Below are positions 46,262 through 52,664 of a stretch of DNA of 64,000 nucleotides, in pieces. The translations under genes were made by a program, and so were the position numbers. How positions within the stretch are numbered: position 1 is the stretch's first letter; each line of letters opens with the position of its first letter. The notes under the pieces are model-generated. The model ran no database searches, was not told where the DNA came from, and saw nothing but the letters and a program-made list of their open reading frames with translations. Origin of the DNA: Thiomargarita sp. (GTDB lineage: Bacteria > Pseudomonadota > Gammaproteobacteria > Beggiatoales > Beggiatoaceae); NCBI GenBank assembly GCA_020721005.1, contig DYNP01000003.1:124001-188000 (forward strand), given 5' to 3'.

Positions 46262-47836
46262 GTGCTATTCAACAGCTTCACCTTTCTCCTCTTCTTCATC
46301 TTCTTTTTCACTCTCTATTTCCTACTAAGACGACAACTGCTGGCCCAAAACCTACTCATCCTAATCAGCAGCTACTTATTCTACGGCTGGTGGGACGAAC
46401 GTTTCCTCATTCTCATCATGCTCTCCACGGTAACCGACTTCATCACCGGCCTTGCCATTACCAAACAAAAACCCACCCTACCACAAGCCCTGGCCCTCAC
46501 CGCCTTTCTACTCATTTTGGGCAGCATTTTACACTGGAGAACCTGGGACACCACCGCCTGGACCATTCTCCCTCTCCTTTTATTCGTCGGACTGGGCTGG
46601 CTGCTTCACAGCTACCTCTTCAACCTCCCCGATCCCAGCCGCAAAAAAGCCTTTCTCCTGTTCAGCATCTGCACCAACCTCACCATTCTCGGCTTCTTCA
46701 AATATTTCAACTTCTTTGCCGACTCCTTCCAACAAACCATGGCCCTTATAGGCTGGCAAGTCGACCCTTTCACCCTCAACATCATTCTCCCCGTAGGCAT
46801 CTCCTTCTACACCTTCCAAACCATGAGCTACACCATAGATGTCTATCGCAACCAAATCACCCCCACTCGCCAATTCATTGCTTTTGCTGCCTTTTTAGCC
46901 TTCTTTCCCCAACTGGTTGCCGGTCCCATCGAACGTGCCAAACACCTATTGCCCCAATTCTACCAACTGCGCACCTTCAACTCCACCGACCTAAAAACCG
47001 GCGCCTGGCTGGCCATATGGGGACTCTACAAAAAAATCGTCATTGCCGACAACCTTGCCCCCATCGTCAACAAAATCTTTGCCGACCCCAGTACTGCCAG
47101 CAGTGGCGACCTTATGATCGGCATTCTCGCCTTCACCTTCCAAATCTATTGCGACTTCTCAGGCTACAGTGACACTGCAAGAGGCACAGCCCGCATGCTG
47201 GGATTTGACATCATGATCAACTTTAACCTACCCTACCTATCCAAAACCCCCACAGAATTCTGGCGTCGCTGGCACATCAGCCTCTCCTCCTGGCTCAAAG
47301 ACTACCTTTATATCAGTCTCGGAGGCAACCGCCTGGGCACCCTCAAAACCTATCGCAACCTCATGCTTACCATGTTACTGGGCGGACTTTGGCACGGCGC
47401 GGCCTGGAATTTCGTCCTCTGGGGCGCCTATCAAGGCACCATTCTCATCATCTACCGTTTCCTCCGGGTCGACGACTGGTTGGCCCAACGCCAAAGTCCC
47501 AAACTCATCTGCTGGCTACAAGACCTTGGACTCATCCTCATCTTCTTCCTGATCACCTGCTTTGGCTGGCTTCTCTTCCGTTCTCCCTCCTTGGAAATCA
47601 TCCAAACCTTCATTCTCGGTCTCAACGGATTCACCTACAGCCACCACCTCCCTGTTCTCGCCTTCTACCTCTGGCCTCTCCTAGCCTTTCAAGCCCTACA
47701 AATCCACTACAATCACCCAGAGCCCCTCCCCCAATTACCCCGATTTTTACGCCTCAACCTCCACCTGTTTATCCTATTCAGCCTCCTATTTCTCTCTTCC
47801 AAAGGGGGACAACAATTCATCTATTTCAACTTTTAA
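46262..47836 (+). CDS. MBOAT-family O-acyltransferase (AlgI/DltB-like)
   Basis: Polytopic membrane enzyme of 524 residues beginning at GTG (46262). It contains FYTFQTMSYTIDVYRNQ, GPIERAKHLLPQF, FWRRWHISLSSWLKDYLY (His338) and the catalytic His378 in LLGGLWHGAAWNFVLWG, all diagnostic for AlgI-type acetyltransferases that move acetyl groups across the inner membrane. Very C-rich coding strand. Between two SGNH hydrolases, so the three together look like an O-acetylation system for a surface polysaccharide; the polymer is not encoded here. Confidence 0.94.
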   Translation: MLFNSFTFLLFFIFFFTLYFLLRRQLLAQNLLILISSYLFYGWWDERFLILIMLSTVTDFITGLAITKQKPTLPQALALTAFLLILGSILHWRTWDTTAWTILPLLLFVGLGWLLHSYLFNLPDPSRKKAFLLFSICTNLTILGFFKYFNFFADSFQQTMALIGWQVDPFTLNIILPVGISFYTFQTMSYTIDVYRNQITPTRQFIAFAAFLAFFPQLVAGPIERAKHLLPQFYQLRTFNSTDLKTGAWLAIWGLYKKIVIADNLAPIVNKIFADPSTASSGDLMIGILAFTFQIYCDFSGYSDTARGTARMLGFDIMINFNLPYLSKTPTEFWRRWHISLSSWLKDYLYISLGGNRLGTLKTYRNLMLTMLLGGLWHGAAWNFVLWGAYQGTILIIYRFLRVDDWLAQRQSPKLICWLQDLGLILIFFLITCFGWLLFRSPSLEIIQTFILGLNGFTYSHHLPVLAFYLWPLLAFQALQIHYNHPEPLPQLPRFLRLNLHLFILFSLLFLSSKGGQQFIYFNF

Positions 47837-47872
47837 CTTCCCCACCAGTTTAACCCAGGTCCCCACACACTT

Positions 47873-48970
47873 ATGAAAAAATGGCCAACCCTATTCCTCA
47901 TCAGCTTCTATTGCCTACTCTTTGGCGAAGTATTCATCCGCATCTTTGCCCCCGTAGCCCTCATGCCCCGCTATGTCACCGGGGCAGAATATGGCGTGCG
48001 CATGAACATTCCCAACTCCCAATACTGGCAAACCACTCCAGAAACTCAAGTTCAACTGCGCATCAACACCCAAGGCATTCGAGCCGACCACAACTATGAC
48101 TACACCAAACCCCCTGGCCATTGTCGCATTCTCCTATTTGGCGACTCCTTTTTCATGGGCTATGAAGTTGATTTAACTGACAGTTTTTCCCAACTGTTGG
48201 AACAAAACCTGCTCAAAGCTGGCTATGCCTGCCAAGTCATCAACCTGGCGGTCAGTGGCTTTGGCACTGCCGAAATGCTGATCACCCTGGCCAATGAGGG
48301 ACTCAAATATCAACCCGATATCGTGGTTTTTCAATGGCATATCACCGATCCCTATGACAATGTCCGCAGCAAACTATTTGGATTGGATGCCCAAGGACAA
48401 CTCATTCCCCTCAACCTTACCTATCTGCCCGGCATTCCAATCAGCGACTGGCTAACCCAATTTACCCTTTATCGCTGGCTGATTGAGAACAGCCAACTGT
48501 ATTCGGCAATCAGAGAAAATACTGCCCGCAAAATAAAATCCATACTGGTCTCTTTTCGAAAAAACACTTCCCATTCTCTCCCCACCAATGATGAAACTGA
48601 TCAAAGTGAAGAAACAGGAAACAATGCCATCTCTCCCTACGCCATGCAACTCAGCTTCCGTCTGCTACAAGCCGCTCAACAACTTGCCCAACAACACCAT
48701 GCCCACTTCTATGTCCTCGAAATTCCCAGACGACATTCTCGAACAGAATTCAGCAGTCAAGTGCCTGATTTTCCAGCGGAATTAGTTCAAAAACTTTCCC
48801 TACTTACTCCCCTGTCTGTATTGCAAGCTGCAGCTCATCCAGAAGTCAAATTATATTACGAAAAGGGCCATTTTCATCTCACGCCCTTAGGCAATCGATT
48901 GGTGGCTGATTATTTCTTTCAACAATTGCATAACAGTGGCATTTTGAAATCTTTCAAAATTCTCCAATAA
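47873..48970 (+). CDS. SGNH hydrolase-type acetylation protein (AlgX/AlgJ-like role)
   Basis: 365 residues with one N-terminal membrane anchor or signal (TLFLISFYCLLFGEVFIRIF). SGNH blocks: CRILLFGDSFFMGYEVD (Ser), NLAVSGFGTAEML (Gly), and a C-terminal His in GHFHLTPLGNRLVADYF. Starts 36 bases after the MBOAT gene. The likely role is the periplasmic transferase that receives acetyl from the MBOAT protein; this is inference from order and fold. Confidence 0.85.
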   Translation: MKKWPTLFLISFYCLLFGEVFIRIFAPVALMPRYVTGAEYGVRMNIPNSQYWQTTPETQVQLRINTQGIRADHNYDYTKPPGHCRILLFGDSFFMGYEVDLTDSFSQLLEQNLLKAGYACQVINLAVSGFGTAEMLITLANEGLKYQPDIVVFQWHITDPYDNVRSKLFGLDAQGQLIPLNLTYLPGIPISDWLTQFTLYRWLIENSQLYSAIRENTARKIKSILVSFRKNTSHSLPTNDETDQSEETGNNAISPYAMQLSFRLLQAAQQLAQQHHAHFYVLEIPRRHSRTEFSSQVPDFPAELVQKLSLLTPLSVLQAAAHPEVKLYYEKGHFHLTPLGNRLVADYFFQQLHNSGILKSFKILQ

Positions 48971-48996
48971 AGTAGCAAACCGCTGCGCGGTCAAAA

Positions 48997-49096
48997 TCAG
49001 AATATTTCCCTCTCATTGGGAAAAACATCGGGGGGAATACCAAAAATTCGCAAAGCCTCAGTCATCACTTTGGCAAATACCGGGGCAGCCACCGTT
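48997..49096 (-). pseudogene. Duplicated 3' end of ftsI with a different C-terminal tail
   Basis: The block 49027-49096 repeats 49510-49579 of the intact ftsI with 68 of 70 bases identical, in the same orientation. It reads TVAAPVFAKVMTEALRIFGI followed by PPDVFPNEREIF and a stop at 48999-48997, whereas the intact gene ends PPDNIIN. Upstream it runs straight into an inserted palindromic element at 49101. It has no start and is not a gene by itself. Confidence 0.85.
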
Positions 49097-49100
49097 TTTT

Positions 49101-49368
49101 CGTTCCCAAGTGGCACTTGGGAATGCAGTCTTGACCGCGTCGCGGTCAGTCATTCACCAGTCCACCCTCCCGTATAAACAGGATTCACCCCCGGTTGTCC
49201 CAAATAATTACGCACATTAAATAAGGCAGCCAGTTAATGGCAGTACAAATTGAAAAATGGGGCACTTGGTTTTCATGGATTTCGACTGCATCCCATTATT
49301 TCTACTCCCATTATTCATACAGACCGCGACGCGGTCAAGACTGCATTCCCAAGTAGAACTTGGGAACG
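49101..49368. mobile_element. 268-bp non-coding element with ~47-bp inverted ends
   Basis: The arms 49101-49147 and 49322-49368 match at 44 of 47 positions after reverse complement. Each arm holds two hairpins: TTCCCAAGT/ACTTGGGAA and GACCGCG/CGCGGTC. The 174-base interior encodes nothing convincing, so this resembles a MITE or REP-pair. A related GACCGC hairpin occurs at 48978-48992. The rest of the 524-base gap to ftsI shows no gene. Confidence 0.75.
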
Positions 49369-49494
49369 AGAAATGACCTGACTGCTCGGGCATATACACT
49401 AATTAGAAACACTGATGTAAACACAAACCTGCCCGGCTTTAAAAACTTGACAAATTTCCTGATAGGGGTAACAATATTTATAATCTATTGAAAA

Positions 49495-51261
49495 TTAATT
49501 GATTATGTTATCGGGGGGAATACCAAAAATGCGCAGAGCCTCAGTCATCACTTTGGCAAATACCGGGGCAGCCACCGTTCCCCCATAATGACTGTCTTGT
49601 TGAGGCTCATCAATCACAATGGCCATGACCCAACGGGGAGAACTGACTGGGACTATACCAACAAACAAGGCCAAATAAGCATTTTCAGCATATTCTCCAT
49701 TTACAACTTTATGCACGGTCCCCGTTTTACCAGCCACTCTATAATTGGGAATCTTGGCTTCCTGAGCGGTGCCTCCAGGTTCAAGTACTGTTTCTAATAA
49801 GGTGAGCATCTGGCGGGCAGTTTTTGGGGAAATCACTGGCACTGCTGGTTTTATCCGGTCTCCACTGCCATTGAAAGGCTGAGGCTGGTTTGTGAGAAAA
49901 AAGCTAACGGGAACCAATTTACCCTGATTCCCAAATATGGTATAAGCACGGGCCAGTTGTAATAAAGTAGCATTGAGACCATAACCAAAAGCCAAAGTGG
50001 CCTGTTCAATGGGTTGCCAAACCGCACTGGGCGCTAAACGCCCGGGCACTTCACCTGGGAATTGACTGCCGGACACCTGACCAAATCCTGCCAGATGCAA
50101 GGTATTCCACAAGGATTGGGCAGGTAAATTCAGGGCAATTTTACTGGCGCCCACATTGCTGGATTTTTGGAGAATGGCAGTTAAATTGATTTTTCCGAAT
50201 GATTGTGGATCTCTGACTTCATATTCGCCAATGGTTAATGAACCCGGACTGGTGTCAATGAGACTGTCCGGAAAATATTGTCCACTGTTTAAGGCAGTTG
50301 CCAACGTAAAAGATTTGAGGGTAGAGCCAGGTTCCAATACGTCAGTTACAGCCCGATTTCGATAAAGGTCACTTTTGCGTTGTTGCCAATCATTGGGATT
50401 GTAAGCGGGTTGATTGACCATGGCTACAATTTCCCCGGTGGGAATGTCCAAAATAATGGCTGATCCAGCTTTGGCTTGATGGTTGATAACAGCCGCTTTA
50501 AGTTCCCGATAAGTATAATAGTGCAAGCGCCGATCTATGCTGAGTTGAAGATCTTTTCCAGATTGGGGAATTTCTAAATTGGCAATTTGTTCAATGGGTT
50601 GTCCAAATTGATCTTGAATAATCTGACGACTGCCCGGTCGACCTTTGAGTAGGGAATCGAGTGCCAATTCTAATCCTTCTTGTCCTTCATCATCAATATT
50701 AGTGAAGCCAATGACATGAGCACAAGTTTCTCCATCTGGATAGTAGCGACGATATTCTCGTTGTAAAAATACTCCCGGCACTTGCAATTGGGTCACTTGT
50801 TGGGCAATATTGGGCGAGATGTGGCGTTTAAGATAGACAAATCCCCGTTGTAGCCGCCCAGTTAAGGTGTTTTGCAAGTCAGTCGAGGTTAAATTTAATA
50901 CCGTCAGCAATTTCTGCCAATGGGATTGATCTTTCATGAATAATTCAGGGTGAATCCATACTGAATCGATGGGAGTGCTGATGGCTAAAGGTTCTCCATT
51001 GCGATCTAAGAGCATGCCACGATGGGCAGGAATGGGCACCGTTCTCAGATGCCTAGCACCCCATTGCCTTTGTAGAAATTCGTTGTGCATGACTTGTAAA
51101 TAAATCGCTCGCCAATATAAACTTAAAACCAAGATAAAAAATAGTCCCAATATCCAACGGCGTCTTTTGGAGAGGGAACGTTTCTTTTTAAGCAAGGTTT
51201 GGGTCGTTTTTAGGGAACGCAGTTTTTTGGGGGGAAGGGAAGATAGCCAGGAAATGGTCAT
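49495..51261 (-). CDS. ftsI: Septal peptidoglycan transpeptidase FtsI (PBP3)
   Basis: 588 residues. A basic cytoplasmic N-terminus and one membrane helix (WILGLFFILVLSLYWRAIYL) come first. The non-catalytic domain has HRGMLLDRNGEPLAIS and the transpeptidase domain has SXXK Ser-x-x-Lys in EPGSTLKSFT, SSN in LQKSSNVGAS, and KTG in RVAGKTGTVHK. Overlaps ftsL by 4 bases. The C-terminal tail (DNIIN) seems to be new: a duplicated copy downstream carries another ending. Confidence 0.96.
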   Translation of the reverse strand: MTISWLSSLPPKKLRSLKTTQTLLKKKRSLSKRRRWILGLFFILVLSLYWRAIYLQVMHNEFLQRQWGARHLRTVPIPAHRGMLLDRNGEPLAISTPIDSVWIHPELFMKDQSHWQKLLTVLNLTSTDLQNTLTGRLQRGFVYLKRHISPNIAQQVTQLQVPGVFLQREYRRYYPDGETCAHVIGFTNIDDEGQEGLELALDSLLKGRPGSRQIIQDQFGQPIEQIANLEIPQSGKDLQLSIDRRLHYYTYRELKAAVINHQAKAGSAIILDIPTGEIVAMVNQPAYNPNDWQQRKSDLYRNRAVTDVLEPGSTLKSFTLATALNSGQYFPDSLIDTSPGSLTIGEYEVRDPQSFGKINLTAILQKSSNVGASKIALNLPAQSLWNTLHLAGFGQVSGSQFPGEVPGRLAPSAVWQPIEQATLAFGYGLNATLLQLARAYTIFGNQGKLVPVSFFLTNQPQPFNGSGDRIKPAVPVISPKTARQMLTLLETVLEPGGTAQEAKIPNYRVAGKTGTVHKVVNGEYAENAYLALFVGIVPVSSPRWVMAIVIDEPQQDSHYGGTVAAPVFAKVMTEALRIFGIPPDNIIN

Positions 51262-51530
51262 GGCATCACTAAATAGTGAGTGTCTGCTGGAGAGGGAATG
51301 ATCATGTTCAGGCGTTGGCGAGCCTGTTCTTCAATAAGATGAGGTTGAGTTAAAGTACTGATTTCCAATTGAATTTTTCCACTTTCTTCTTGCAATTGGT
51401 AATGGTGTCGTTGTAAATTTTGCAGTTGAGTAAACAGGGAGCGATGTTCATGGCGGATTAAAATGAGGTGTAAGGCAGAGATGAAATTGATGAATATAAG
51501 TAGGGTGAACAGTGCAATTTTCATAATCAA
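51258..51530 (-). CDS. ftsL: Cell division protein FtsL
   Basis: 90 residues with one membrane helix near the N-terminus (ALFTLLIFINFISALHLILI), then a leucine-zipper-like coiled coil (LFTQLQNLQRHHYQLQEE) and the family motif EEQARQRLNMIIPSP. It overlaps rsmH and ftsI by 4 bases on each side, so all three are translationally coupled. Confidence 0.93.
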   Translation of the reverse strand: MIMKIALFTLLIFINFISALHLILIRHEHRSLFTQLQNLQRHHYQLQEESGKIQLEISTLTQPHLIEEQARQRLNMIIPSPADTHYLVMP

Positions 51531-52543
51531 ATACGTTCTGCGACACGTAAAACCGCACTTCTTGCCCGAGGGTTGGCGGCTATTTCTTCGTCATTAGGAT
51601 AAATAGGTCGAGTTATTTTTCGCAGTGTGGGTCGTAAGGCAGCAGCCGGTATGGGAATATGAGCTGGATAATGGTCTCCCTGGGCAGCTTGGCGGATAAA
51701 TCGTTTGACGATTCGGTCTTCTAGGGAATGAAAACTGATGCACAGGAGTCGTCCTTGGGGGGCCAGGAGTTTGGGAATTTGAGGTAAGATTTGTTGCAGT
51801 TGTTCCAATTCCCGATTGATGAAAATCCGCAGAGCTTGAAAGGTTTGAGTGGCGGGATGATGGTGAGCAGGCCAAGCAGGATGGGCTTGGGCAACAATAT
51901 CTGCCAATTGAACGGTAGTCGTCAGTGGGGTTTGTTGGCGAGTCATTATAATGGCTTTGGCAATTCGACGAGCATGGGGTTCTTCTCCATAATCCTTCAG
52001 GACAGTGATTAATTCTGCCAAAGATACGGTGTTTAACCAGTGTTGTAAGGTGGGACCTTGGCTGGTATTCATCCGCATGTCTAAGGGACCTTGGTGTCGA
52101 AAACTAAATCCCCTATCGGGATTATCCAATTGAGGTGAGGAAACTCCCAAGTCTAATAGGATTCCCATTATGGGTTGTGGCGAGGGAAATTGAGCCAATA
52201 CTTGTTCCAATTGGGAAAATGCGGCATGGACAATTTGAAACCTGGAATCTTGTTGAGCAATTTTTTGACCGGCTTCAATGGCTTCAGGATCTTGATCCAG
52301 GGCTAATAATTGTCCCCTTTCTGCAAGTTGTTCTAAAATAGCTCGGCTATGACCTCCTCTTCCAAAGGTACAATCCAGGTATCGACCTTCCGGTTGTATA
52401 TTTAAATGGGTAACAACCTCTTTCAGTAATACGGGTTGATGGGTTACTGAGGGGGGTAAAAGTGTACTGATAGTTAAACTCCTTGTTTTTAATGGCCGTA
52501 TTTTAAGAAAGGGCAAATCATATTTAGGCTTATTGCGGGTCAT
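51527..52543 (-). CDS. rsmH: 16S rRNA m4C1402 methyltransferase RsmH (MraW)
   Basis: SAM-dependent methyltransferase: HQPVLLKEVVTHLNIQPEG, DCTFGRGGHSRAIL (SAM motif), LLDLGVSSPQLDNPDRGFSF and ISFHSLEDRIVKRFI. The annotated ATG at 52543 gives 338 residues, about 25 more than usual. A perfect AAGGAG at 52484-52479 stands 7 bases before an ATC codon (52471-52469) that would give the usual length, so the true start is uncertain. Usually mraZ precedes it; here only an element lies upstream. Confidence 0.93.
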   Translation of the reverse strand: MTRNKPKYDLPFLKIRPLKTRSLTISTLLPPSVTHQPVLLKEVVTHLNIQPEGRYLDCTFGRGGHSRAILEQLAERGQLLALDQDPEAIEAGQKIAQQDSRFQIVHAAFSQLEQVLAQFPSPQPIMGILLDLGVSSPQLDNPDRGFSFRHQGPLDMRMNTSQGPTLQHWLNTVSLAELITVLKDYGEEPHARRIAKAIIMTRQQTPLTTTVQLADIVAQAHPAWPAHHHPATQTFQALRIFINRELEQLQQILPQIPKLLAPQGRLLCISFHSLEDRIVKRFIRQAAQGDHYPAHIPIPAAALRPTLRKITRPIYPNDEEIAANPRARSAVLRVAERI

Positions 52544-52664
52544 TTTAACCCTAAACGCCACATCTTTAAGGCTTTTCCCGGCAGTCATTATAGCAAATCA
52601 ACCCAATTAGGGCAATTCCTGTCTCTACTTTTCTATAGGAATGACAAAGTCATGGCTTTTTGAT

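Follow-up and report, generated by a model that had tools for sequence, protein, structure and literature searches.

A RAYT/TIRYT-type element beside ftsI in Thiomargarita sp. and the long direct repeats that flank about half of its sites

How can the essential gene ftsI stay whole when a mobile element lies next to its final codons? This question arises in a 64,000-nucleotide stretch of Thiomargarita sp. (contig DYNP01000003.1, positions 124,001 to 188,000; hereafter the window), where the 3′ end of ftsI occurs twice. The first-pass annotation had reported a 70-base direct repeat with 68 identical positions. This repeat was confirmed at 49027–49096 and 49510–49579 (68/70 identical), with 413 bases between the copies. 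A self-BLAST E value of ~1e-27 rules out a chance repeat. By inspection, both mismatches are synonymous in the ftsI frame. The parts of the locus, with the evidence for each in parentheses, are the following.

49495–51261, minus strand: ftsI (peptidoglycan transpeptidase), intact, 588 aa, ending GIPPDNIIN (ORF; NCBIfam FtsI/PBP2 models)
49510–49579, minus strand: X, the proximal 70-bp repeat copy, within ftsI (repeat comparison, self-BLAST)
49374–49509, minus strand: Y, the 136 bp between the element and X, holding the last ftsI codons and stop at 49495–49509 (ORF, genome search)
49096–49373, no strand assigned: E, an internally deleted RAYT/TIRYT-type unit (arms, hairpins, copies, folding)
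49096–49150 and 49319–49373, no strand assigned: terminal inverted repeats of E, 55 bp, two hairpins each (arm comparison)
49346–49366, no strand assigned: hairpin 1 of the right arm (hairpin search)
49322–49336, no strand assigned: hairpin 2 of the right arm (hairpin search)
49224–49280, minus strand: remnant of RAYT residues 8–26 (protein comparison)
49153–49218, minus strand: remnant of RAYT residues 159–181 (protein comparison)
49133–49147, no strand assigned: hairpin 2 of the left arm (hairpin search)
49103–49123, no strand assigned: hairpin 1 of the left arm (hairpin search)
49027–49096, minus strand: X′, the distal 70-bp repeat copy, a dead ftsI fragment (repeat comparison, translation)
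48971–49026, no strand assigned: A, a degenerate REP arm past X′ (comparison with the element arm, translation)

The 413 bases had been described as an insertion with a palindromic element. Their length and the palindromic arms stand, but the element accounts for only ~280 of them. Y had no further match in the genome and is probably native DNA downstream of ftsI. Beyond A, at 46262–48970, an MBOAT acyltransferase gene and a GDSL/SGNH-like gene run convergent to ftsI; we take the pair to be reminiscent of polysaccharide O-acetylation pairs.

The two copies end differently, as had been noted: intact ftsI ends PPDNIIN, and the distal copy carries another ending. In the ftsI frame, X′ reads GIPPDVFPNEREIF and then a stop (its tail is also given as PPDVFPNEREIF), closing with VFPNEREIF. 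The first-pass annotation had taken this distal tail for the original one and expected the FtsI of relatives to end like it. FtsI was compared across 30 loci, of which 27 were counted, leaving out the gene itself (L001) and two loci cut by contig ends (L017 and L028). Tails of the 27 relatives lay near PPDNI, PPDNL, PPDDI or PPDAK, with LPDNI also present. None carried V after the PPD-like motif (0/27), the residue found in the distal copy, and three carried N, as in DNIIN. DNI-type tails, which the first-pass annotation had named as evidence against its own reading, thus occur among relatives. VFPNEREIF and its stop are encoded by 48997–49026, a part of A. The match of A to the right arm of the element had p ~0.001; of 4000 random genome pieces, 0.075% scored at least as high. 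A also matched Y, weakly (p ~0.005) and less well than the element arm, and this match was not taken to show that an outer Y had been lost. The PPDNI- and PPDNL-like ends of relatives and the position of VFPNEREIF in a degenerate repeat arm make DNIIN look native. On these sequence comparisons, DNIIN is likely the native ftsI tail and the distal tail derived. Identity to the nearest FtsI relatives is only ~55–58%, so this polarity is likely rather than certain. That an insertion duplicated the ftsI 3′ end and left the gene open, as had been proposed, is supported; the proposed rewriting of its tail is not.

The opposite polarity deserves a full statement. The 70 bp would be the whole target duplication, 49374–49509 would be captured filler, ftsI would once have ended VFPNEREIF, and DNIIN would come from inserted DNA. 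A plain X-insert-X reading does make the A–X′ junction original, and at other sites in this genome the filler between element and right repeat copy is inserted matter. At the other nine repeat pairs, however, fillers measure 55 bp or less and consist mostly of stuttered element ends, whereas Y is 136 bp of unique sequence. The tails of relatives and the REP-arm likeness of A likewise speak against DNIIN as inserted sequence. We regard this history as improbable.

The identity of the element follows from its ends and its remnants. Its arms are 91% complementary and form hairpins, with a folding z-score of −10.6. In a 690-bp relative from the Thiotrichales MAG BB31 (L083), the same arms enclose an intact frame of 201 aa. 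The 201-aa protein is a REP-associated tyrosine transposase by NF047646 (NCBIfam, 93.3 bits, cutoff 80); Pfam gave no match to it. E retains residues 8–26 and 159–181 of this protein in two frames and is therefore an internally deleted RAYT unit, descended from one that encoded such a transposase. Twenty matches to the L083 transposase were present in the Thiomargarita genome, mostly to its first ~30 residues, and no intact RAYT matching the element was found there. E is multicopy and mainly intergenic, the ORF context having been examined at nine repeat-flanked sites. The GTAG/GTRG head of classical REPs was not seen; the arms begin TTCTCGTTCCC at most copies. The element is thus of RAYT/TIRYT type and not a classical GTAG REP.

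We then consider its copies. The genome (4.05 Mb, 133 contigs) holds 22 near-full copies of E at 18 sites, a near-full copy being defined by a single alignment that covers more than 200 of the 281 query bases; solo hairpins and two more element pairs at C133 fall outside this count. Hairpin 1 alone has 61 exact copies. A class-wide search with the hairpin matched 2 of 369 genomes, this one and G024. Element hairpins also lie at three contig ends (C77 right, C104 left, C111 right), where copies probably broke the assembly; the genome should thus hold at least as many copies as counted.

Ten of the 22 copies, at nine of the 18 sites, sit exactly between direct repeats of otherwise unique flanking DNA, 51–215 bp long, as would be seen for an insert with a long target duplication. 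This holds for one genome, and the remaining 12 copies had no such flanking repeats. The repeat lengths are as follows.

C20: 67 bp
C44: 68 bp
C73: 215 and 199 bp (two elements, one array)
C81: 124 bp
C96 (ftsI): 70 bp
C108: 98 bp
C117: 75 bp
C126: 51 and 83 bp

In all ten cases, no more than 24 bp separate the left repeat copy from the element. The right copy starts within 17 bp in eight, at 55 bp at C108 and at 136 bp at ftsI. Comparable arrangements were found at 10 of 15,120 random 265-bp intervals (20 stretches of 20 kb) and at 5 of 724 intergenic positions, with limits (left ≤70 bp, right ≤140 bp, repeats ≥40 bp and ≥80%) that were fixed after the cases were known. Across sites the two repeat copies differ by 2–18%, and this divergence argues that the repeats are neither an assembly echo nor the product of one event. 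Short repeated scraps of element ends lie beside the elements at the junctions, e.g., CGAGGTAACGAGGTA and TTCTCGTTTTCTCG. They suggest end processing or slippage during the joining of ends.

Could the repeats have come first? Ordinary tandem duplications might have formed independently, with elements landing there later without harm. Tandem duplications of 40–200 bp are common in this genome without the element, with ~20 tandem or gapped loci in 400 kb of control sequence. Yet a chance landing would be expected within a repeat copy, and the element lies at the junction in 9/9 repeat-bearing sites, against the intergenic control rate given above. Two separate events are quite improbable on this pattern. 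Unequal recombination between element copies could instead have made tandem units of element plus flank, of which the X-E-X structures would be leftovers. Arrays of element plus flank do occur at C44, C73, C77, C108 and C133, and tandem REPIN clusters with flanks are known from the part of PMC3116915 that we draw on. Such units predict X-E-X-E, however, and seven of the nine sites show a single element between two X copies (ftsI, C20, C81, C108 at 239 kb, C117 and C126 twice). We consider this origin very unlikely.

The preferred reading is that the ftsI 3′ end was duplicated as a nonautonomous RAYT/TIRYT element inserted downstream, with a long target duplication and a native DNIIN tail. We hold this to be probable. 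The flanking duplications would then be target duplications made at insertion.

The array at C73 illustrates what such duplication may do to an operon. Three copies of a segment that comprises the terminal 140 bp of murE and the downstream spacer alternate there with two elements. Because the murE end is part of the duplicated segment, the array has a complete murE on one side and a complete murF on the other. In three relatives (L200, L203 and L209 only, of 11 loci, several of the others having another or no murF), murF starts 36–131 bp behind murE. Subtracting the extra units by their coordinates gives an intergenic distance of ~91 bp, on the assumption that murF begins at residue 28 of its frame, the position at which homologues align. 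This inferred empty spacing falls within the range of the relatives. The duplication at C73 seems to have kept both operon genes whole. The dcw cluster is split in this genome: rsmH-ftsL-ftsI end at window positions 49495–52588, and murE-murF are found on a different contig (G000:C73:25824–29710). In many relatives of other families, murE is directly behind ftsI.

A mechanism can be proposed for such insertions. Opposite-strand nicks would fall tens to ~200 bp apart, and the nicked ends would be filled in. The hairpin-ended element would then be ligated in between, and the stuttered remains of element ends seen at the joints would date from this step. A search of the genome found no Ku, so classical end joining would not be the joiner. 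Since the duplication would restore a gene cut near its end, it may explain why such insertions survive. At ftsI, the duplicated segment would probably be Y plus X, ~206 bp, with the outer Y copy later lost or replaced by the REP arm A. The gene would thereby retain its native DNIIN tail and the distal copy would be a dead fragment. The right copy at ftsI lies 136 bp from the element, unlike at the other sites, and this two-step history is therefore conjecture. The enzymology of this scheme is inferred.

Similar flanking repeats occur at other loci. At G000:C11:92560–93228 (L132), hicBA and a solo hairpin lie by groEL between two 49-bp direct repeats (98%); the repeats include a terminator-like hairpin, and a 35-bp piece of hicB is copied beside one of them. 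In L085 (positions 615–1604), vapBC and a hairpin of the element family lie between 49-bp direct repeats (94%). Repeats of 43 bp (88%) surround a DUF2887/DUF4351 gene at G000:C67:121374–122499 (L106), and repeats of 51 bp (98%) surround an ALTTAQ-repeat lipoprotein-like gene at G000:C96:270172–271405 (L118). Direct repeats of 44–86 bp also surround members of two further REP-like families, GCGCAAT...ATTGCGC and GGCTAAAGCCTC, at L181:8640–8947, L197:19421–19714 and L191:4264–4605. Among 13 RAYT loci of relatives (L150–L162), viewed with REP clusters and unique DNA taken together, no clear case was found.

These places bear on which agent makes the duplications. Any DNA captured at staggered breaks might receive long target duplications in this lineage, as a habit of the host and not a property of RAYT elements. 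The 43–51 bp repeats around hicBA, the DUF2887 gene and the ALTTAQ-repeat gene fit this, as do vapBC in L085 (Thiotrichaceae MAG STC_44), flanked alike, and the other REP-like families (44 bp at L181, 45 bp at L197, 86 bp at L191). None of the ten hairpin loci of a related genome (G013) had such repeats, which also fits. However, the places are few and were judged by eye, and the hicBA, DUF2887 and vapBC cases also have a hairpin of this element family nearby. We give this explanation close to an even chance, though somewhat less. It is about the agent and does not conflict with the history preferred for ftsI, and the habit of the host may matter as much as the element.

Target duplications of DDE elements are usually a few bp. 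Insertion with a long target duplication was reportedly described by Nobusato in 2000 (Gene 259:99) for restriction-modification genes of Helicobacter pylori. Lengths in the order of 100 bp are given in the part of PMC3874152 that we cite, and, to the extent covered there, those inserts resemble E in being flanked by direct repeats of target DNA that are long and variable. Unlike them, E is derived from a RAYT unit, has hairpin ends and occurs in many copies in a sulfur-bacterium lineage, its repeats differ between copies and its joints carry stuttered element ends. The best reading is that long target duplication, known for restriction-modification genes, is seen here for RAYT-derived elements. 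In the cited portions of the RAYT/REP, REPIN and TIRYT literature (Nunvar 2010, PMC2817692; Bertels and Rainey 2011, PMC3116915; PMC3733652), these systems have several features in common with E: a Y1 tyrosine transposase gene framed by hairpin-bearing inverted repeats, occurrence in many copies, a mostly intergenic position and short unit derivatives. TIRYT genes have double-palindromic terminal repeats, according to the section used of the 2013 work on GTAG/CGTC repeats (PMC3733652). E differs from what these portions describe in having copies between 51–215 bp direct repeats of target DNA. Bacterial MITEs (RUP, NEMIS, ERIC and others), named in PMC3733652, are like E short, internally deleted and multicopy with terminal inverted repeats; unlike them, E derives from an HUH (Y1) transposase gene and its duplications measure tens to ~200 bp. 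Within the consulted parts of the open-access REP/RAYT/REPIN literature, RAYT-type elements were nowhere linked to long target duplications. Among the papers listed on such repeats in Thiotrichales, none concerned this element.

It would be a larger claim that RAYT/TIRYT-type HUH elements, or this branch of them, insert leaving ~50–200 bp target duplications, unlike the clean single-strand pasting of IS200/IS605. We regard this generalization as doubtful. If true, REP-like elements could insert at the ends of genes and at the joints of operons and leave the genes intact. The spread of REPs and REPINs is called a central, unresolved issue in the cited part of PMC3116915 and is poorly understood according to that of PMC8266576, and a group of RAYT-derived insertions that have long duplications at their flanks is a clue to how REP elements insert. 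Junction-resolved long duplications of different ages would make the insertion step testable, with nick spacing, end processing and polarity readable from sequence. The same process would explain how an essential gene such as ftsI stays whole although a mobile element adjoins its 3′ end.
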